Source of the DNA: Aminivibrio pyruvatiphilus
GTDB taxonomy: Bacteria; Synergistota; Synergistia; Synergistales; Aminobacteriaceae
Assembly (NCBI RefSeq): GCF_004366815.1
Contig: NZ_SORI01000005.1
Coordinates: forward strand, 62,001-126,000
Direction of reading: 5' to 3'
DNA: 64,000 bases
Made by a program: the position numbers and the translations under genes. The notes below the pieces were generated by a model. The model ran no database searches. It had not been told where the DNA came from and was given only the letters and a program-made list of their open reading frames with translations. Below, piece after piece: positions 137-11,503 of the stretch. The number at the start of each line of letters is the position of its first letter. Position 1 is the first letter of the stretch.

Positions 137-919
137 TCAGAGATTTTCCGAGACGAGCTCTCCGTACTCTACCGACCGGTACTGTCGGTACTCCTTCCCC
201 TGCACGCCGATGGCCTGGGGCGGACAGAAAGCGATGCACCGCTGGCAGGAGACGCAGGTGTCCAGGAACTCGGGATACTCCGCCATGCGGATGTTCTTCG
301 CCGGGCAGAGCCTGGCGCACTTGCCGCACTTGATGCACTTCTCCCTGTCCACGGCGAGGGGATACTTGCCCCTCATGAGCTTCCATGGCCACTGCTGCCG
401 GGAGAGACGGTAGAGGAGCGGGGAAAGGACATTGCCTCCCTTCCACGGGGCGTTTCCCTCCAGGAGGGCGTCGGCGAAGGCGGAAGCGTTCTTCTCCATT
501 GTTTCGATTTTTTTCCTGTTCCTCTCGAGGGGTATGGTTGTGTTGTTGTAATTTGACGGCATGACGAAATCCCGAGCCCCCAGGGGGGTGAAGTTCTTCG
601 AAAGCAGAAGTTTTTTCACCGCCGGGCGGAGGCCTCCGGACGCTCCTCCCATGGTGGAGATCAGGAACGCGCTCCGGCCCTGTCCGTCGGGGAGGCTCTC
701 GAGGAATTCCCAGGCGAAGGGGTAGGTGGAGAACATGGCCACTGTGACTGCGATTCCAAGGGCGGTCCTGTCGTCCTGGAAGGGTAGAAACCCTTTTTCC
801 AGCCGGCGGAGCCGGACCGTCTTCCCTCCTTCCCTGAGCCCCCGGGCCACGGCCCGGGCCGCGAGCAGGGTGTTTCCCGTTCCGCTGAAAAAGTAGAAAT
901 CCACTGACCTTTCCTTCAT
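137..919 (-). CDS. EFR1-type flavodoxin plus 2x[4Fe-4S] ferredoxin protein
   Basis: Cytosolic electron carrier or oxidoreductase. The N-terminus is flavodoxin-like, with the FMN phosphate loop FSGTGNT near residue 10. The C-terminus carries two [4Fe-4S] motifs, CIKCGKCARLCP and CVSCQRCIAFCP. This two-part architecture is typical of EFR1-family ferrodoxins in strict anaerobes. The frame is open upstream to 1087, but the ATG at 919 (MKERSVDFYF) is preceded by AAGGAGG and places the FMN loop at the usual distance from the N-terminus, so it is preferred. It is followed by a second gene 16 bases downstream and is divergent from msrA. The partner is unknown; the Cys motifs are intact. Confidence 0.85.
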   Translation of the reverse strand: MKERSVDFYFFSGTGNTLLAARAVARGLREGGKTVRLRRLEKGFLPFQDDRTALGIAVTVAMFSTYPFAWEFLESLPDGQGRSAFLISTMGGASGGLRPAVKKLLLSKNFTPLGARDFVMPSNYNNTTIPLERNRKKIETMEKNASAFADALLEGNAPWKGGNVLSPLLYRLSRQQWPWKLMRGKYPLAVDREKCIKCGKCARLCPAKNIRMAEYPEFLDTCVSCQRCIAFCPPQAIGVQGKEYRQYRSVEYGELVSENL

Positions 920-1056
920 TTCGGGAGCCGCGCCTCCTTCGGGGATATTTATGGGCCCCATTGTACAGCAGGAAAGCCGGAGATGATTGTCTCCCCGGAA
1001 AGAAAGATGACGGTAGTGTAAAATAATAGGGAAAGAAATTACGGGAGGTGGAGAAA

Positions 1057-1761
1057 ATGAAAATACTTGAAGCTGTAATTGCCGCATCAGTCGTGTTTTT
1101 TGCCGGAAGGGCGTGGGCCGGTGAGCTTCCTCCCCTGGACCGGCAGATTCCTCAGGAACTCCGTACAGCCACCTTCGCCCTAGGGTGATTCTGGGGACCT
1201 GACGCCCGGTTCGGGCTTCTCGACGGAGTGGTGCGCACCAGGGTGGGATATGCCGGGGGAACCACTCCGGATCCTACCTACGACGATATAGGGGATCATA
1301 CGGAGACCGTTCAGGTCGATTTCGACCCGGCAAAGATTTCCTACGGCGAGCTCCTGGAAGTGTTCTGGACGAGCCACAACCCGGCGGCCCGTCCATGGTC
1401 CGTCCAGTACCGGTCCGCCATTTTTCCGGCGGACGAAGAGCAGCGAAAAACAGCGGAACGTTCGGCCGCGAAACTCGAGACCGCCATAGGCGGCAAGGTC
1501 TTTACGGCCATCGAACCCCTGGCCCGCTTTTACATGGCCGAGGGGTACCATCAGAAATACTACCTTCGCAGGGATTACATCCTCATGAGGGAATACAGTG
1601 AAATGTTTCCGGAGCGGGACGGTTTCGTCAATTCCCCCTCCGCTGCGAAGGCCAACGGAATTCTTGCGGGACTGGGTTCGAAGGAGGAACTGGAACGATT
1701 TCTTCCGCTGCTCGGTCTTTCGGAGGAGGCGCAGAAAAGACTCCGTACCAGGGTGAAATAA
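1057..1761 (+). CDS. msrA: Exported peptide methionine-(S)-sulfoxide reductase, selenocysteine form
   Basis: Reduces methionine-S-sulfoxide in oxidised proteins. The ATG at 1057 follows GGGAGGTGG and opens a signal peptide ending AWA-G at about residue 21. The MsrA signature GCFWG appears as G-TGA-FWG: codon 44 (1186-1188) is TGA where every family member has the catalytic Cys. The frame is otherwise open from 1057 to the TAA at 1759-1761 (234 residues). Downstream it is typical MsrA (VGYAGG, PTYDD, HTE, Y-N-P-type contacts). A hairpin with GGU in its loop begins 15 bases after the TGA, where bacterial SECIS elements lie. The rest of the protein has no Cys, so there is no internal resolving thiol and an external reductant is needed. 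A gene finder that ignores Sec would call only 1228-1761 and lose the signal peptide and active site. Confidence 0.9.
1201..1219 (+). promoter_or_regulatory. SECIS-like hairpin downstream of the msrA UGA
   Basis: A perfect 5-bp stem GCCCG/CGGGC (1204-1208 with 1212-1216) encloses GTT. It is extended by G1201-C1219 and A1202-T1218 across a C/T mismatch. Read with a 4-bp stem, the loop is GGTTC, which contains the GGU that SelB recognises in the E. coli fdhF element. The stem starts 15 bases after the UGA, within the window used by bacterial SECIS elements. Confidence 0.7.
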
Positions 1762-1797: not shown

Positions 1798-2763
1798 ATG
1801 AAGACTGTGTTTGTTGGGCTCGGCGGTGTCGGCGGGTACTACGGCGGCAAAGCGGCCCGGGCATTTGAAGGCGGCAGTGAGCACCGGGTGGTGTTTCTCG
1901 CCAGGGGAGAGCATCTCCGGGCCATCACGGACAAGGGGCTGAGGGTGCTGGCCCAGGACGAGGAGTTCCTCGCAAGGCCCTTCCTTGCTACCGACGATCC
2001 CGCTGAAATCGGAACAGCCGATCTTGTGGTCTTTGCGGTAAAGGGGTACGACCTCCGGATGGCCGCCCGGACGGCCGCCCCCCTCGTGGGACCGGAGACA
2101 GCGGTCCTTCCGCTGCTGAACGGGGTGAACAGTCCTGAAATCCTGGCCGGGACACTGCCTCCGTGCCGGATGCTCAACGGGTGCGTATACATCTCCGCCC
2201 GGATCGAGGGGCCCGGGGTGGTCCGCCAGACGGGGGGCAGCAGGAAGCTCTTCTTCGGCCCCGTGTCCGGCGGCAGGGAGCAGTACCTGCCCGTGGAGGA
2301 AATGTTCAGGAAGGCGGGGATAGATGCGGCTCTCGTGGATGACGTGAACGAGGCCGTCTGGACGAAGTTCATCTTCATGGCGCCCTTTGCCGGGGTAACG
2401 TCTCTCTTCGGAAGATCTTTCGGCGAAGTTCTCGCGGGGCAGGACAGCCAGCCCATGCTCGAGGGGATGATGCGTGAGATACAGGCCCTTGCAGTGCTCA
2501 AGGGAGTTTCCCTTCCGGCGGACATAGTCGAGCTGTCCCTTGCAAAGGGAGTGGCCTTCCCGCCGGACACGAAATCATCCATGCAGCTCGACTGTGAAAA
2601 GGGGCGCAGAACGGAAATCGAAACCTTCCTGGGATTCGTCGTCCGGGAGGGAGAGCGTCTCGGAGGCGATGTTCACCTCACCCGGGGCGTGTACGACGCC
2701 CTGAGAATGAGGGCGGATCACCCCTGCGGCTGCGTTTACGAGCAGGAGGGACAGCGCCCGTAG
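1798..2763 (+). CDS. Ketopantoate reductase-family (ApbA/PanE) 2-dehydropantoate 2-reductase homologue
   Basis: 321 residues. It begins with the nucleotide-binding motif GLGGVGGYYGG of the ApbA/PanE Rossmann fold. It continues with the family pattern VVFAVKGYD, PLLNGVNS and the C-terminal helical domain containing NEAVWTKFI, whose Lys aligns with the catalytic lysine. The family reduces 2-dehydropantoate to pantoate with NADPH in coenzyme A synthesis, but many paralogues act on other 2-keto acids, so the exact substrate is inferred. The ribosome site is AGGAAAGAAGAGG. The 3' end overlaps the convergent Fur-family gene by 28 bases, with no terminator between them. Confidence 0.8.
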   Translation: MKTVFVGLGGVGGYYGGKAARAFEGGSEHRVVFLARGEHLRAITDKGLRVLAQDEEFLARPFLATDDPAEIGTADLVVFAVKGYDLRMAARTAAPLVGPETAVLPLLNGVNSPEILAGTLPPCRMLNGCVYISARIEGPGVVRQTGGSRKLFFGPVSGGREQYLPVEEMFRKAGIDAALVDDVNEAVWTKFIFMAPFAGVTSLFGRSFGEVLAGQDSQPMLEGMMREIQALAVLKGVSLPADIVELSLAKGVAFPPDTKSSMQLDCEKGRRTEIETFLGFVVREGERLGGDVHLTRGVYDALRMRADHPCGCVYEQEGQRP

Positions 2764-4230: not shown

Positions 4231-4273
4231 GCATGGGTGCAGAATGTATGGGGTATACAGTTCTGTTTGTTTA

Positions 4274-4302
4274 TTGAACGAGAATGACGTTTATGCTATC
4301 AT
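4274..4302 (+). promoter_or_regulatory. Sigma70-type promoter of the hydrogenase operon
   Basis: TTGAAC (4274-4279), a 17-base spacer and TATCAT (4297-4302), with TGC just before the -10 (extended -10). It lies 68 bases upstream of the first hydrogenase gene and faces it. The Rex-like operator begins eight bases downstream, over the expected transcription start. Confidence 0.7.
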
Positions 4303-4310
4303 CAATCCAA

Positions 4311-4328
4311 TTGTGACCGTATGCACAA
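4311..4328 (+). promoter_or_regulatory. Rex-like operator over the hydrogenase operon start point
   Basis: TTGTGACCGTATGCACAA is an 18-base imperfect palindrome with TTGTG/CACAA arms and eight central bases. It has the length and outer arms of the Rex site (TTGTGAANNNNTTCACAA). Rex is the NADH/NAD+ sensing repressor that controls many fermentative and hydrogenase genes. The site sits on the likely +1, so binding would block transcription. A CRP-family protein could recognise a related half-site, so the assignment is inferred. Confidence 0.55.
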
Positions 4329-4369
4329 TGCCTGCAAAGGCAGAAGTAAAGGGGAAAAGGAGGGGAATC

Positions 4370-4840
4370 ATGGCTTTCAGCGTTGATGAGATCCGCGAAA
4401 GGTCCAGGAAAATCGCCGAACCCTGGCGGAACGGCAAGGGAGGTCTCATTCCCATTCTGCAGGCCGTTCAGGAGCAGATGGGATATCTTCCGCCGGAGGC
4501 CCTGGAGACCATATCCAGGGAACTGAAAATACCGTCCTCGGAGATTTACGGTGTAGCAACGTTCTACGCCCAGTTTCACCTCAAGCCCAGGGGACGCCAT
4601 GTGGTGCGGGTCTGCCGGGGAACGGCCTGTCATGTCCGGGGCAGCCTGAAGATACTGGACAGCGTGAAGGAGATCACGGGAGTGGAGGAGAACCAGACCA
4701 CCGAGGACCTGCGGTTCACCATAGAGCCGGTGGCCTGTCTCGGCGCATGCGGTCTCGCGCCGGTGATGATGATCGACACCCAGACGTTCGGCCGCCTGAC
4801 TCCCGACATGGTGAAGGGCATCCTCGACAAGTTCGAGTAG
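4370..4840 (+). CDS. hydC: Bifurcating [NiFe] hydrogenase subunit HydC (NuoE-like, 2Fe-2S)
   Basis: 156 residues, thioredoxin-like NuoE/HoxE/HydC fold. It has an N-terminal helical part (LIPILQAVQEQMGYLP) and four [2Fe-2S] cysteines arranged as CRGTAC and CLGAC. The ATG at 4370 is chosen because it follows AAGGAGGGG; the frame is open upstream across the promoter. It is the first gene of a seven-gene operon whose products together make an NAD-linked hydrogenase. HydC docks on HydB and holds a cluster beside the flavin. Typical length for the family, with no missing residues. Confidence 0.9.
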   Translation: MAFSVDEIRERSRKIAEPWRNGKGGLIPILQAVQEQMGYLPPEALETISRELKIPSSEIYGVATFYAQFHLKPRGRHVVRVCRGTACHVRGSLKILDSVKEITGVEENQTTEDLRFTIEPVACLGACGLAPVMMIDTQTFGRLTPDMVKGILDKFE

Positions 4841-4858
4841 AAAGCGGAGGAGAACGCC

Positions 4859-5233
4859 ATGACGCAAATGAAAATCAGGAACCTCGACGATCTGAGAAAG
4901 CTGAGGGAATCGTCCCGGGACCTTTCGTCCGCACGGTCCGGCGGTGAAACGGTGATTATCGTGGGCATGGGGACCTGCGGCATCGCCGCCGGGGCCAGGG
5001 AAATCCTCTCCGAAGTGATGGCCGAACTCGCGAGGAGAAACATCGGCGATGTGGCGGTCCAGACCACGGGCTGCATCGGCATGTGCCAGGACGAACCCCT
5101 GCTCGACGTGATCCGGGGAGGCCAGAGGGTGACCTACGGCCGGGTGAAGCCGGAAGATGTTCCCACCATCATAGCGGAGCACGTGGTGAACGGCCGGGTC
5201 GTTGAAAAAATGGCCATCGGCCGGGCCGACTAG
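4859..5233 (+). CDS. Thioredoxin-like [2Fe-2S] ferredoxin-domain protein (HndB-like)
   Basis: 124 residues. It resembles the small HndB subunit of the Desulfovibrio NADP-reducing hydrogenase and similar proteins that sit between NuoE and NuoF genes. Motifs are [15 protein letters not shown] and [16 protein letters not shown]. Only three cysteines are seen in the cluster region, against four in the N-terminal domain of HydB, so either a non-Cys ligand completes the cluster or it is not assembled. The ribosome site is GGAGG. It sits 18 bases from hydC and 17 from hydB, so it is clearly in the operon. Likely an accessory or electron-transfer subunit. Confidence 0.8.
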
Positions 5234-5250
5234 GGGAGGGAGGAGGAATC

Positions 5251-7044
5251 ATGCCTATTTATCGTTCCCATATCCTGGTCTGCGGAGGCACCGGATGTGT
5301 GTCCAGCGGAGCCCGGGACGTAACGGAGTGTCTCAGGAACGCCATCAGGGACAGGGGGCTCTCCGAGGAAGTGCTCGTAGTGCCCACGGGATGCCACGGA
5401 ATGTGCGAAATGGGACCCATCGTGGTGGTCTATCCCGAGGGGACCTTCTACTGCCGGGTCCAGAAGTCGGACGTGGCGGAGATAGTGGAGGAGCACATCT
5501 ACAAGGGACGCCCGGTGCAGCGGCTCATGTACTCGGGCTCCGAGGATATGCCCTTCATCCCCCACTACAAGGAAATCCCCTTCTACGGCAAGCAGCACCG
5601 CATCGCCCTGGCGAACTGCGGCTACATCAACCCGGACAACATCGAGGAATACGTCGCCAGGGGCGGCTACGAAGCCCTTGGAAAAGCCCTTGCCGGCATG
5701 ACGCCCGCCCAGGTGATCGACGAGGTGAAGACCTCCGGCCTGAGGGGGCGCGGAGGCGGCGGTTTCCCCACGGGTCTCAAGTGGAGTTTCTGCGCCTCCG
5801 CGAAAGGCGACAAAAAGTATGTCATCTGCAACGCCGACGAGGGGGACCCCGGGGCTTTCATGGACCGGTCCATCCTCGAGGGCGACCCCCACAGCGTCAT
5901 CGAGGGCATGATGCTCGGGGCCTATGCCATGGGCGCCGACGAAGGATACATCTACTGCCGGGCGGAGTACCCCCTGGCCATCCAGCGGCTGAAAACGGCC
6001 ATGGCCCAGGCCGAAGCCTACGGCCTCCTGGGGGAGAACATCATGGACAGCAGCTTCTCCTTCACCCTTCACGTCAAGGAAGGGGCCGGTGCCTTCGTCT
6101 GCGGCGAAGAGACGGCCCTCATGGCCTCCATCGAGGGGCGGAGGGGGATGCCCCGGCCGCGGCCTCCCTTCCCTGCCAATTCCGGCCTCTGGGGGTGTCC
6201 CACGAACATCAACAACGTGGAGACCTGGGCCAATGTTCCCCCGATCCTCAGAAACGGCGGGGCATGGTACGCCTCCATGGGAACCGAGAAGTCCAAGGGA
6301 ACGAAGGTCTTCGCCCTCACGGGAAAGATCAAGCACACCGGCCTCGTGGAAGTGCCCATGGGCATCACCCTCCGGGAGATCATCTTCGACATCGGCGGCG
6401 GCATACTGGACGACAAAAAATTCAAGGCGGTCCAGATCGGCGGCCCCAGCGGAGGATGCCTCACCGAGGAGCATCTGGACACCCCGGTGAGCTACGAGAG
6501 CCTCACGGCCCTCGGGGCCATCATGGGTTCCGGCGGTCTCGTTGTCATGGACGAAACCACCTGCATGGTGGACGTGGCCAAGTTCTTCCTGGAGTTCACC
6601 CAGAAGGAATCCTGCGGCAAATGCGTTCCCTGCAGGGAAGGCACCAAGCACATGCTGCTGCTCCTCGAGAAGATCACCGACGGCAAGGGCACCATGGAGG
6701 ACCTGGACACCCTCGAGGGCCTCGCCCACATGGTGAAGGACATGTCCCTCTGCGGCCTGGGGCAGACTGCCCCCAACCCCGTGCTCACAACGCTCCGGTA
6801 CTTCCGGGACGAGTACGTCGCCCACATCAGGGATCACAAGTGCCCTGCCGGAGCCTGCGCGGCCCTGCTGGAATACAGGATCATCCAGGAGGCCTGCAAG
6901 AAGTGCGGCATCTGCGCCAGGAACTGTCCCGTCAAGTGTATCCCGGGCGACCGGAACTCCGGGTACCATATCGAGACCGACCGGTGCATCCGTTGCGGCA
7001 CCTGCTTCGAGAAGTGCCCCTTCGGCGCTATCGAGAAGAAGTAG
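5251..7044 (+). CDS. hydB: Bifurcating [NiFe] hydrogenase flavoprotein subunit HydB (NuoF-like)
   Basis: 597 residues, with FMN, NAD(H) and several Fe-S sites. In order: an N-terminal thioredoxin-like [2Fe-2S] domain (CGGTGC and CHGMC, Cys11/16/48/52); the NuoF core with the FMN/NADH glycine loop [11 protein letters not shown] and [13 protein letters not shown]; the N3-type [4Fe-4S] motif CGKCVPC plus a later Cys; and a C-terminal pair of [4Fe-4S] motifs [12 protein letters not shown] and [12 protein letters not shown]. The extra N- and C-terminal cluster domains separate bifurcating HydB proteins from plain HoxF/NuoF. It is expected to split electrons between NAD+ and ferredoxin. Confidence 0.9.
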
Positions 7045-7062
7045 TACCTGAGGAGGATCGAC

Positions 7063-9051
7063 ATGAGTGATATCACGCTCGTCATCGACGGAGTCGAATG
7101 CAGGGCGGCAAAAGGAGACACCATTCTCCAGGTCGCCCGGAGAAACGACATCTACATTCCGACCCTCTGCTGGATGGAGGGGCTGACGCCCATCGGTTCG
7201 TGCCGCATGTGCGTCGTGGAGGTGGAGGGGAACCCCAAGCTCCTCACCGCCTGCACCACCCCGGCGGAGAACGGAATGAAGATACATACGAAGACGGAAA
7301 AGCTGAAACAGTACCGCCTGCAGATCCTGGAGCTTCTCTTCGCGGGAAGGAACCACTTCTGCATGTTCTGCTCCCAGACGGGAGACTGCGAACTCCAGCG
7401 GCTCGCCATCGAGCACGGCATGGACAAGGTTCGCTACCCCTTCCTGTACGAGCCGTTCCATAACGACGCCACGGACCCGAACATCCAGCTGGACCACAAC
7501 CGGTGCATCCTCTGCCTGAGGTGCATCCGGGTCTGCGCAGAGAAAGTCGGGGCCCATACCCTCGACCTCGAAAAGAGGGGATGGGGAACCAACATCACCG
7601 CTGATCTCGGGAAGATGCTCGGCGAGAGCGACACGTGCGTGTCCTGCGGCGCCTGCGCCCAGGTCTGCCCCACGGGAACCATAACCCTCCGGGACTTCGT
7701 CTACCGGGGACGGCGGAACGACTGTGACGACCAGGTGGAGAGCATCTGCCCGCTCTGTTCTCTCGGCTGCAGGATCAAGGCCTATGTCCGCACTGGAAGC
7801 GTTGCGCGGGTTGAAGGTCTCTCGGCGAACAGCCCCGACGGGGGCCAGCTCTGCCACAAGGGACGCTGGGGCCTGCCCAAATCCACAGAACGGGACCGCC
7901 TCACGGCTCCCATGATCCGAACCGGTTCTTCCTTCAGGGAAGCTTCCTGGGAGGAAGCGCTGAATCTCATCGCATCGAAGCTCAGTTCCGCATCGAAGGC
8001 CAACAGGGCAGGCGCTCTCCTCTCCGAGCTGTCCACCGACGAAGAACTCTCCGTGGTCTCCTCTTTCTTCAGGGACACCATGAATATGGAGAAGGTGGAC
8101 GGGTTCTACGGCAACATGCTCCGGGGATTCGTGAAGGGTTTCCAGCCCTTCGCCGACCAGGGAATACGGCCGTTCACCGGGGCGCACAACATCCTCGAGA
8201 GCGATGCCATTGTCGTCATCGGGGCGAACCCCCAGGAGGAGGCCCCCGTGGCAGCGAGCTATATCCGGGTCTCCACCATCATCGAGAGAGCGAAGCTTAT
8301 CAACCTGTCCGCAGGGAAGAACCCCTTCGACGGGATCACCGACGCGGATATCCGGGCCGCCCTCGGGGGTGAGATGGAAAAGGTGCTGGTCTCTCTGAAA
8401 GAGGCCGTTGAAGGAGGAGATGAACCGAAGGACCCCGGCATGAAGGAAGCCGTCCGGATTCTCCGGGAAGCGAAGAAGCCCGTGTTCGTCATCGGTTCAA
8501 GCCTCGCGGAACATCCCGCCCTCGTCACGGAAGCCCTGAACCTGGCAGTCGCCTCGAAGGCCTTCTTCAACGACGGTCTCGGCGTGGTGCCCATGCTCCG
8601 GGGAGGAAACTGCCTCGGTGCACTCAACACGGTCATCGGTGAGAGCGACTGGCTCGGCGACGGCGAGCTCGATTTCCTCTACGTGCTCTCCACCGGCATG
8701 GTGGATGAGGACAAACGGTCCCTGGAGGCCATGACCAGGGCACGGTTTGTGGTGGTGCACACCCCCTTCATGGTCCATCCACTGGTGAACATGGCCGATG
8801 TGCTCCTTCCCGCCCCGGCGTGGTTCGAACGAAGCGGGCACTACTGCACCCTGGAGGGAGAGCGGCGCAGAATGAACATGATCGTGCCTCCCAAGGGCAA
8901 CCTGAAGGGATTGTCCGTCATCATGAATGAGCTGGCCGGCAAGCTCGGTCTCGCACTCCAGCCCGCCTCGGCCGCTCCCTGCGAAAACGTCTACGAGGCG
9001 AAGTCCCCGTCCACCGCGGCCAGGACCGTCTCGCTGAAGGAGGTACGATGA
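7063..9051 (+). CDS. hydA: Hydrogenase Fe-S subunit HydA (NuoG-like, with Mop-like C-terminal domain)
   Basis: 662 residues. N-terminal [2Fe-2S] domain (Cys36/47/50/64), His-Cys3 [4Fe-4S] site (His98, Cys100/103/109), and two ferredoxin-type [4Fe-4S] motifs (Cys148-158 and Cys192-202). A NuoG-type extra cluster follows (Cys229/232/236/264) at the head of a molybdopterin-oxidoreductase-like domain reaching the C-terminus. Simple HoxU proteins stop after about 240 residues, so the 400-residue extension is notable. It wires HydB to the small subunit. There is no H-cluster domain, so despite the name it is not an [FeFe] hydrogenase. The stop overlaps the start of hydS as ATGA. Confidence 0.87.
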   Translation: MSDITLVIDGVECRAAKGDTILQVARRNDIYIPTLCWMEGLTPIGSCRMCVVEVEGNPKLLTACTTPAENGMKIHTKTEKLKQYRLQILELLFAGRNHFCMFCSQTGDCELQRLAIEHGMDKVRYPFLYEPFHNDATDPNIQLDHNRCILCLRCIRVCAEKVGAHTLDLEKRGWGTNITADLGKMLGESDTCVSCGACAQVCPTGTITLRDFVYRGRRNDCDDQVESICPLCSLGCRIKAYVRTGSVARVEGLSANSPDGGQLCHKGRWGLPKSTERDRLTAPMIRTGSSFREASWEEALNLIASKLSSASKANRAGALLSELSTDEELSVVSSFFRDTMNMEKVDGFYGNMLRGFVKGFQPFADQGIRPFTGAHNILESDAIVVIGANPQEEAPVAASYIRVSTIIERAKLINLSAGKNPFDGITDADIRAALGGEMEKVLVSLKEAVEGGDEPKDPGMKEAVRILREAKKPVFVIGSSLAEHPALVTEALNLAVASKAFFNDGLGVVPMLRGGNCLGALNTVIGESDWLGDGELDFLYVLSTGMVDEDKRSLEAMTRARFVVVHTPFMVHPLVNMADVLLPAPAWFERSGHYCTLEGERRRMNMIVPPKGNLKGLSVIMNELAGKLGLALQPASAAPCENVYEAKSPSTAARTVSLKEVR

Positions 9052-9593
9052 CCATGGCGAAGCCGAAAATCGCGTCCGTCTGGCTTGAGGCCTGTGCGGG
9101 CTGCCATATGTCCTTTCTCGACATCGACGAACGGATAGTGGATCTCCTCGGCAAGGTGGAGCTCACCGCCACGCCCATCACCGACATCAAGACCTTCCCC
9201 GAGGTCGAGGTGGGGGTCATCGAGGGCGCCCTCGGCAACGAGGAGGAGCTTCATCTCGCGAAGGAGCTGAGGGAGCGGTGCAAGATCCTCATTGCCTGGG
9301 GAGACTGTGCCGTCTTCGGCGGAATCAACTGCATGCGGAATTTTATGCCTGCCGAGCAGGTGCTGAAGGAAGGATACGTGGACACCGTCAGCACGGTGAA
9401 CCCCGACGGCGTACTTCCCCGCCAGGATCTCCCGGCGCTTCTGCCCCAGGCGATCCCCGTGGACCGGGCCGTCAAGGTGGATGTCTACGTTCCCGGATGC
9501 CCGCCCGACGCGGACACCATCTATTATGTCTTCAGCGAGATACTGGAGGGGCGGATTCCCACCGTTCCCACGGATATCATGCGCTACGACTAG
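9048..9593 (+). CDS. hydS: [NiFe] hydrogenase small subunit HydS (HoxY-like)
   Basis: 181 residues, the size of a cytosolic group 3 small subunit that has only the proximal [4Fe-4S] cluster. Its ligands are visible: CAGC (Cys16, Cys19), WGDC (Cys87) and PGCPPD (Cys151). There is no Tat signal and no medial or distal cluster region, so it stays in the cytoplasm and passes electrons to HydA. Start chosen at the ATG inside an ATGA overlap with hydA, with AAGGAGG eight bases upstream. Confidence 0.92.
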   Translation: MTMAKPKIASVWLEACAGCHMSFLDIDERIVDLLGKVELTATPITDIKTFPEVEVGVIEGALGNEEELHLAKELRERCKILIAWGDCAVFGGINCMRNFMPAEQVLKEGYVDTVSTVNPDGVLPRQDLPALLPQAIPVDRAVKVDVYVPGCPPDADTIYYVFSEILEGRIPTVPTDIMRYD

Positions 9594-9608
9594 CGGAGGA
9601 AACGAGTC

Positions 9609-11042
9609 ATGGAGAACACGAAGAAAAACACCATTGTGGTGAATCCCATCACCCGCATCGAAGGCCACGGAAAGATCACCGTGGACCTGACGGACGGCGG
9701 CGCCGTCGACAGGGTCCGCTTCCACGTGACCCAGTACCGGGGGTTCGAGGTCTTCTCGAAGGGCAGGGATTTCCGGGAAATGCCGGTGATCACCCCCCGT
9801 ATCTGCGGAATCTGCCCCGTGAGCCATCATCTCGCCTCCGCCAAGGCCTGCGACGCCATTCTCGGCGTCACCCTCACGCCCACGGCGGCGAAGCTGCGGG
9901 AGGTCATGCACATGGGGCAGTTCATCCAGTCCCATGCCCTCTCCTTCTTCCACCTGTCGAGCCCGGACCTGCTCTTCGGGTTCGACGCCGACCCCGCCAT
10001 CCGGAACGTGGCCGGGCTGGCCCAGGAATACCCCGATCTGGCTGTGGCGGGCATCGGCATGAGGAAATACGGCCAGGAGATCATCAAGACCCTGGGCGGC
10101 AAGAAGGTCCATCCGTGGCACAGCATTCCCGGAGGGGTGAACCGCAGCCTCCGGGCGGAGGAGAAGGACGGCATGATCGCCGCCCTGCCGAAGCTCAAGG
10201 ATGACCTCCGGAAGGCCCTCGACCTGGTGAAGAACTACCTGGCGGAGAATGCGGAACTGGCCGCCCGGTTCGCCACCCTCGAGACGTCCTACCTGGGCCT
10301 CGTGAAGGACGGAAACCTGGAGCTCTACGACGGCCGCATCCGGCTCAAGAGTCCCAGGGGACGAATCACCGACGAGTTCGACGACAGCGAATACTGCGCC
10401 CACATAGGGGAGCACGTGGAGGAGTGGAGCTACCTGAAGTTCCCCTTCTACCGTCCCCTGGGCTTCCCCCACGGATCCTACCGCGTGGGGCCCCTGGGAC
10501 GAATCAACGCCTGCGACGACATTTCCACTCCCGAAGCATCGGCGGAGCTGGCTGCCTTCAGGAAGTCCACCGATGACGGCATGGTCCACTACACCCTCTA
10601 CTACCACTACGCCAGGCTCATCGAGATCCTCTATTCCATGGAGCGTCTCGAAGAGCTCCTGAACGACCCGGACGTCCTCGGCAGCGACCTCAGGATCACC
10701 GGAAACGTAACGAACCGCGAGGGTGTCGGAGTGGTGGAGGCCCCCAGGGGAACCCTTATCCACCATTACGAGGTGGACGGCAAGGGTGCCATCGAGCGGG
10801 CGAATCTCATTGTGGCCACCGGGCACAACAACTACGCCATGAACCGGGGCGTGGAACAGGTGGCCAGGGACTACATCACGGGCTCCGACGTGAAGGAAGG
10901 GGCACTGAACCGCATGGAGCACGTAATCCGCTGCTACGACCCGTGCCTCTCCTGCTCCACCCACGCCGTCGGAAAGATGCCCCTGAAGCTCGAGGTGCGG
11001 AACAGCCGCGGCGACGTGGTGAGGACGGTCACCAAGGAGTGA
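9609..11042 (+). CDS. hydL: [NiFe] hydrogenase catalytic large subunit HydL (HoxH-like)
   Basis: 477 residues. It binds the Ni-Fe(CN)2CO site and activates H2. The N-terminal L1 motif RICGICPVSH (Cys66, Cys69) and C-terminal L2 motif DPCLSCSTH (Cys446, Cys449) supply the four metal thiolates. Twenty-five residues follow His452 and are the expected removable C-terminal peptide. The protein is closest in style to cytosolic group 3 (bidirectional, NAD-linked) enzymes. L2 has Cys, not Sec. The stop overlaps the GTG start of the maturation protease gene, so synthesis and processing are coupled. Confidence 0.93.
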   Translation: MENTKKNTIVVNPITRIEGHGKITVDLTDGGAVDRVRFHVTQYRGFEVFSKGRDFREMPVITPRICGICPVSHHLASAKACDAILGVTLTPTAAKLREVMHMGQFIQSHALSFFHLSSPDLLFGFDADPAIRNVAGLAQEYPDLAVAGIGMRKYGQEIIKTLGGKKVHPWHSIPGGVNRSLRAEEKDGMIAALPKLKDDLRKALDLVKNYLAENAELAARFATLETSYLGLVKDGNLELYDGRIRLKSPRGRITDEFDDSEYCAHIGEHVEEWSYLKFPFYRPLGFPHGSYRVGPLGRINACDDISTPEASAELAAFRKSTDDGMVHYTLYYHYARLIEILYSMERLEELLNDPDVLGSDLRITGNVTNREGVGVVEAPRGTLIHHYEVDGKGAIERANLIVATGHNNYAMNRGVEQVARDYITGSDVKEGALNRMEHVIRCYDPCLSCSTHAVGKMPLKLEVRNSRGDVVRTVTKE

Positions 11043-11503
11043 AGGTCCTCGTCTGCGGCTACGGCAACCCCTTCCGGACCGATGACGGGGTGGGGCATCT
11101 TCTCGCCCCTGCCGTGGCTGAACTGATCGCTTTCCGTGGAGGAGAGGCGGAGGTCCGCCTGGAGCACCAGCTTCTGCCCGAAATGGCGGAGGAGTTCGGG
11201 AAGTACGATCTGCTGGCCTTCACCGACGCACGGGTGCCCGGTACCGGGAGCGGGAACGGATACGATATCCGGGAGATTTCTCCCGACCCCGCTCTCGAAG
11301 GACTCAACATCCACTCGGTGGGCCCGGAGTGGATTCTTGCCCTCGCCGCGAGGCTATGGGGGAAAGTGCCACCGTCGGTACTCGTCAGCGTGGAGGGGGA
11401 ATCCTTCGATTTCGGCGAAGGCCTGACTGCGGCATGCAATGAACGGATGAACTGCGCCCTCGCCGCTTTCGATGAATGGCTGAGAGACAGAAATTTACAG
11501 TAG
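11039..11503 (+). CDS. [NiFe] hydrogenase maturation endopeptidase (HyaD/HoxW family)
   Basis: 154 residues from a GTG that overlaps the hydL stop (GTGA). Family marks are the N-terminal VLVCGYGNPFRTDDGVG, with the nickel-sensing Asp in the DDGVG segment, LLAFTDARVPGTG, and a later His in NIHSVGPE. These nickel-dependent peptidases cut the C-terminal tail of the large subunit after the metal site is complete. Position as last gene of the operon fits. The frame is open to 10943, but that part lies within hydL. Confidence 0.87.
   Translation: MKVLVCGYGNPFRTDDGVGHLLAPAVAELIAFRGGEAEVRLEHQLLPEMAEEFGKYDLLAFTDARVPGTGSGNGYDIREISPDPALEGLNIHSVGPEWILALAARLWGKVPPSVLVSVEGESFDFGEGLTAACNERMNCALAAFDEWLRDRNLQ

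Follow-up and report, generated by a model that had tools for sequence, protein, structure and literature searches.

A selenocysteine-containing MsrA of the Clostridium oremlandii type, probably exported, in Aminivibrio pyruvatiphilus

Oxidised methionine is repaired outside the cytoplasm by PilB of Neisseria and by MsrPQ of Escherichia coli. PilB acts there as a Trx-MsrA-MsrB fusion that has its own reductase domain and a resolving Cys, and MsrPQ is an enzyme of another kind. The E. coli system has been described in this role (PMC6316033). MsrA containing selenocysteine (Sec) is a recognised bacterial selenoprotein family (PMC13188914, PMC9312934, PMC1794560), reported among others in Syntrophobacter fumaroxidans (PMC1794560). 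Synergistota are known as rich in selenoproteins (PMC12013277, PMC9312934), with 13 of them in Aminobacterium sp. MB27-C1 (PMC12013277). The relevant passages of PMC1794560, PMC12013277 and PMC9312934 contain no mention of an MsrA location or signal peptide.

The closest enzymes of solved structure come from Clostridium (Alkaliphilus) oremlandii. Its MsrA (CoMsrA) contains one Sec, lacks Cys and has a helical C-terminal domain needed for activity; it is 20-fold more active than its own Cys form and is reduced by glutaredoxin, not thioredoxin (PMC4333827). It can also form an intermolecular dimer in catalysis (PMC4479559). Here, we describe a related gene in a 64,000-nucleotide stretch of the genome of Aminivibrio pyruvatiphilus, a member of the Synergistota (hereafter the window). 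The features of the locus are as follows, in window coordinates.

137 to 919, minus strand: divergent flavodoxin-like/ferredoxin protein with two 4Fe-4S motifs (Pfam Fer4; start at 919 chosen from the open reading frame; also a neighbour in L024-L026 and L028-L030; a neighbour by position alone)
1044 to 1050, plus strand: Shine-Dalgarno sequence GGAGGTG, 6 nt before the ATG at 1057, read by eye from the sequence
1057 to 1761, plus strand: msrA, putative Sec-containing peptide-methionine (S)-S-oxide reductase, 234 aa, U44 (PMSR PF01625, TIGR00401, full-length match to CoMsrA 4LWJ, UGA orthologs)
1057 to 1119, plus strand: predicted Sec signal peptide, residues 1-21, MKILEAVIAASVVFFAGRAWA followed by GE (hydropathy, AxA motif, conservation in relatives, purifying selection, low AlphaFold2 confidence before residue 21)
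1165 to 1569, plus strand: MsrA catalytic domain, residues 37-171 (Pfam PMSR match)
1186 to 1188, plus strand: UGA, predicted to encode Sec at catalytic residue 44 (TGA in 26 Synergistota orthologs and in L057; TGC or TGT in 81 homologs)
1204 to 1216, plus strand: candidate SECIS apical hairpin GCCCG-GUU-CGGGC (third bases locked in codons +6 to +9; basal pair alternating between G-C and U-A)
1576 to 1746, plus strand: C-terminal helical domain, residues 174-230, CoMsrA-like (five helices in the AlphaFold2 model; alignment to 4LWJ over its length)
1798 to 2763, plus strand: panE-like ketopantoate reductase, downstream (Pfam ApbA/ApbA_C; a neighbour by position alone)

The order ferredoxin/flavodoxin (minus strand), msrA, panE-like and fur-like (minus strand) is wholly or partly kept in close relatives. 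Further along the window, at 4244-11503, the translated reading frames resemble by eye a hydrogenase-type cluster, with NuoE/NuoF-like, iron-sulfur, NiFe hydrogenase-like and maturation-protease-like products.

The initial annotation had read G-TGA-FWG within a single open frame, and this reading holds: the frame 1057-1761 contains one TGA, at codon 44 in the context ATFALG-U-FWGPDARFG, and ends at a TAA. Mechanical calling of reading frames recovers only 1228-1761 (GTG start, 177 aa), so that 57 residues including the active site are missed, as had been anticipated. Seventeen frames of msrA-like size in the window can be opened by reading through a single TGA, and 1057-1761 is the only one of them in which a protein-family context around the TGA was recognised by eye. 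Its product matches Pfam PMSR across the TGA (1.6e-42, 145.7 bits), scores above the cut-off of TIGR00401 and carries the G[C/U]FWG motif of the PMSR domain. It is the sole MsrA detected in the genome.

Both domains of the protein are homologous to those of CoMsrA. The C. oremlandii structures are the best solved relatives (9e-54, over the mature length), and an AlphaFold2 model built from 42 aligned sequences (pLDDT 92.3, pTM 0.86) superposes on 4LWJ with TM scores of 0.79/0.89; the alignment spans 198 columns at 44% identity, and other MsrA score well below this. With CoMsrA (PDB 4LWJ, 4LWK, 4LWM and 4U66) it shares Sec in GUFWG, the lack of Cys, and the succession of catalytic and C-terminal helical domains. 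By these features the window protein is a 1-Cys/1-Sec MsrA of the CoMsrA type, a kind already known, since such an enzyme with a C-terminal helical domain has been characterised as CoMsrA. The frame encodes no Cys, which bears out the earlier statement that the chain has no resolving residue, and the need for an outside thiol reductant that was derived from it agrees, by analogy, with the 1-Cys Sec-MsrA of C. oremlandii (PMC4333827, PMC4479559). These shared sequence features suggest that the chemistry is also that of CoMsrA: the Sec selenolate would attack methionine-S-sulfoxide, methionine would be released with formation of a selenenic acid, and the latter would be reduced by an external thiol, no resolving Cys being present.

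Homologs with Cys, found in haloarchaea, Salinibacter, Halanaerobium, Bacilli and Thermoplasmata, are related over both domains and are mostly 1-Cys; they differ in having TGC or TGT for the TGA and a free choice of codons at the hairpin site. Those of Halanaerobium (L059, L063, L067, L069, L072 and L074) start with a segment resembling a signal peptide and end in a long extension that, from its length and Cys pattern, looks like a fused MsrB.

The protein differs from CoMsrA at the N-terminus. CoMsrA has 209 residues with Sec at position 16, which leaves no room for a signal peptide, whereas the window protein begins with a predicted signal peptide of 21 residues. This segment reaches a 13-residue hydropathy of 2.47 and contains an AxA site; its hydrophobic part starts after Glu5 and is accompanied by a single Lys, making it a modest signal. 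The hydrophobic segment and AxA are kept in the genus and also in g8 and g18. Among the 27 UGA orthologs, 26 from Synergistota and L057 from a metagenome-assembled genome (MAG) of unstated phylum, hydropathy exceeds 2.0 in 20 and falls just below in one more, and many have AxA. Five orthologs, all of family f2, have no hydrophobic N-terminus; export is therefore not universal among UGA orthologs. The MsrA of L057 (5001-5567) displays a lipobox-like LVAC near its N-terminus and is possibly a selenoprotein lipoprotein.

In Synergistota, which are diderm, an exported enzyme would end up in the periplasm or on the outer side of the inner membrane. Of the original description as a secreted protein with a signal peptide, hydropathy, AxA and conservation speak for the signal peptide, and "secreted" gives way to a protein that is probably periplasmic or membrane-anchored. 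The same selenoenzyme could instead keep its N-terminus as an uncleaved anchor, or reside in the cytoplasm and be reduced by cytoplasmic glutaredoxin as in C. oremlandii. CoMsrA itself has no extension and is glutaredoxin-dependent (PMC4333827), the genome has a glutaredoxin gene, and the f2 orthologs dispense with the N-terminal segment; yet in the genus, g8 and g18 a hydrophobic segment followed by AxA persists under purifying selection, and the only MsrB detected in the genome also starts with a signal-peptide-like segment, which renders this alternative rather improbable. An exported selenoprotein MsrA of the CoMsrA type, with one Sec, no Cys and a C-terminal helical domain, is the overall explanation that we regard as very likely. 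Sec-MsrA as a type is already on record, and what this protein adds is its probable export; no description of an exported Sec-MsrA was found among the open-access papers searched.

The genome (3.35 Mb, 98.9% complete) was searched for selA, selB, selC and selD, as had been recommended, and all four are present. The selC gene matches RF01852 with 74.5 bits and is called tRNA-SeC by ARAGORN, and the genes for SelA and SelB adjoin directly on the same contig and strand. The genome's SelD itself has an in-frame UGA (TTSGUAAKIG; L020, about 1499-1590), followed 12 bases on by a hairpin GGTCC-GGC-GGACC whose geometry is similar to that of the msrA hairpin.

The comparison of position 44 in close relatives, also recommended, showed that UGA is kept at that codon in related genomes. 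An MsrA match was obtained in 89 of 188 genomes of the phylum, and orthologs with one TGA in at least 26, always at the codon equivalent to residue 44. The UGA orthologs of 25 relatives are 46-86% identical to the window protein. Sec-MsrA had been said to exist in a few anaerobes and algae; its existence is upheld, and "few" understates a spread over at least 26 Synergistota genomes. The 81 Cys homologs, with TGC or TGT at this position, lie nearly all outside the phylum. In a midpoint-rooted tree, the placement of all Sec sequences in one clade was not rejected (p-AU 0.47). The selA gene is found in 133 of the 188 genomes and in nearly all of those with a UGA gene; selA above threshold was not found in two UGA-ortholog genomes, G007 (56% complete) and G122 (86% complete), plausibly on account of missing sequence.

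As the initial annotation had noted for a GGU-loop hairpin, a SECIS-like element follows the TGA at 15 bases: 13 bases at 1204-1216, GCCCG-GUU-CGGGC, with a G in the small apical loop. Folded in isolation it is more stable than its shuffles (z -2.16). A 50-nt fold with a lower stem is at chance level (z -0.01), and we therefore restrict the claim to the apical hairpin; a long SECIS with a lower stem was set aside, as neither folding energy nor conservation at silent sites supports it. An Rfam scan of the window at the gathering threshold gave no match.

Across the 27 UGA orthologs, the third base is all but invariant in codons +6 to +9 (C in 27/27, G in 27/27, C in 26/27 and G in 26/27) and free on either side, for example at the Gly codons +3, +13 and +20. 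Codon +9 is GGG in 26 of 27, where the pooled usage of GGG is 0.28 (p 8e-14), and Arg codon +7 is CGG in 23 of 24, where that of CGG is 0.23 (p 3e-14), whereas the control Gly codons +3 and +13 are free (p 0.20 and 0.67). These binomial p-values are inexact and serve as a guide, the orthologs sharing descent, but the rest of the gene shows a good mixture of bases at its synonymous sites. No such lock is seen in the 81 Cys homologs, in which the peptide is mostly very similar (GGG in 16/81, CGG in 20/81), and the hairpin energy is lower in Sec than in Cys homologs (p 2e-9). The basal pair is G-C in 10 UGA orthologs, U-A in 10 and a G-A mismatch in 6, and in L040 a change from CGG to AGG coincides with one from GGG to GGA, the stem being kept in a shifted register. 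This pattern indicates that the hairpin is held by selection on silent positions and is a real bacterial SECIS. A Cys (TGC) homolog in a Syntrophobacterales MAG (L054, 559-1206) has a GCCCGGTTCGGGC hairpin identical to that of the UGA genes, possibly a SECIS remnant; remnants of this sort are described in PMC1794560.

A lone stop in an otherwise open frame would at first look like a TGC or TGT codon mutated to TGA, in a pseudogene or by sequencing error. The TGA is, however, found at the equivalent codon in 26 genomes, and its presence in related genomes excludes a sequencing error; comparison of the 43 residues before it with those of two congeners gives dN/dS of 0.13 and 0.34, indicating purifying selection, and the hairpin is conserved at silent sites. 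As the UGA is kept across the phylum together with its flanks and the hairpin, the TGA in the msrA frame is not due to chance, and both a pseudogene and an error were ruled out, having practically no probability left. Genome-wide reassignment of TGA, for instance to Trp, is just as implausible and was ruled out too: the in-frame TGA is the one thing found in its favour, while 14 of 32 long reading frames in the window (mechanically called, some not genes) end in TGA, which thus also serves as a stop in this genome, homologs have Cys at the UGA position, and the Sec machinery is complete. Taken with the machinery, the conserved codon and the hairpin indicate that 1057-1761 is a real selenoprotein MsrA with Sec at the catalytic position, the UGA at 1186 presumably being read as Sec by the genome's SelA, SelB, SelC and SelD under the direction of the hairpin at 1204-1216.

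The only MsrB detected in the genome (L136, 1330-1857) has, by eye, a signal-peptide-like N-terminus, MNAVLLVLAGVLLLVPARECSA, and both Msr enzymes thus appear to be envelope proteins. In contrast to the PilB fusion, MsrA and MsrB are here separate genes, and MsrA has Sec. The N-terminal signal peptide would place MsrA in the envelope beside the exported MsrB. Elsewhere in the genome, a CcdA-type DsbD_TM protein adjoins a membrane-anchored thioredoxin with a CVPC motif, and this transporter and thioredoxin could plausibly supply the electrons for MsrA. The only glutaredoxin found in the genome has 79 residues and no signal peptide. Given that CoMsrA uses glutaredoxin and not thioredoxin, any envelope reductant proposed here is conjectural.

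In the family to which A. pyruvatiphilus belongs, about 15 genomes contain a divergent MsrA gene that retains the helical domain (L137-L151, in G092, G090, G098, G095, G091, G102, G104, G099, G101, G089, G096, G097, G044, G094 and G035). These genes form one fully supported clade, and a panE-like gene stands beside 10 of the 15 in the flanking DNA retrieved. Position 44 is Cys in 8, Ser in 6 and Arg in 1; Trp46 is lost in all 15 and His165 in 14, D49E and Q129E are fixed, and there is no clear signal peptide. The two that were tested against PMSR still match, and a second MsrA match occurs in 10 of these genomes. The divergent gene is apparently a conserved pseudoenzyme, and its position, though not the midpoint-rooted tree, suggests descent from the Sec form. 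We tentatively propose the wider picture that an exported 1-Sec MsrA, an exported MsrB and a relay of CcdA and anchored thioredoxin may place the whole of MsrA/MsrB-type repair in the envelope, and that in sister genera a related gene at the same site next to panE lost its active site and persists as a pseudoenzyme.

If MsrA is exported, this raises the questions of how a selenenic acid is reduced outside the cytoplasm without glutathione or glutaredoxin, and for what reason an organism from an anaerobic phylum would keep its sole MsrA and its sole MsrB in the envelope. The msrA gene provides a clear, testable SECIS. Ordinary calling of reading frames misses its catalytic residue, and in at least 26 genomes the UGA orthologs can be expected to be affected likewise. 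The degenerate sister genes, in turn, offer a natural case of what follows the loss of a catalytic residue.
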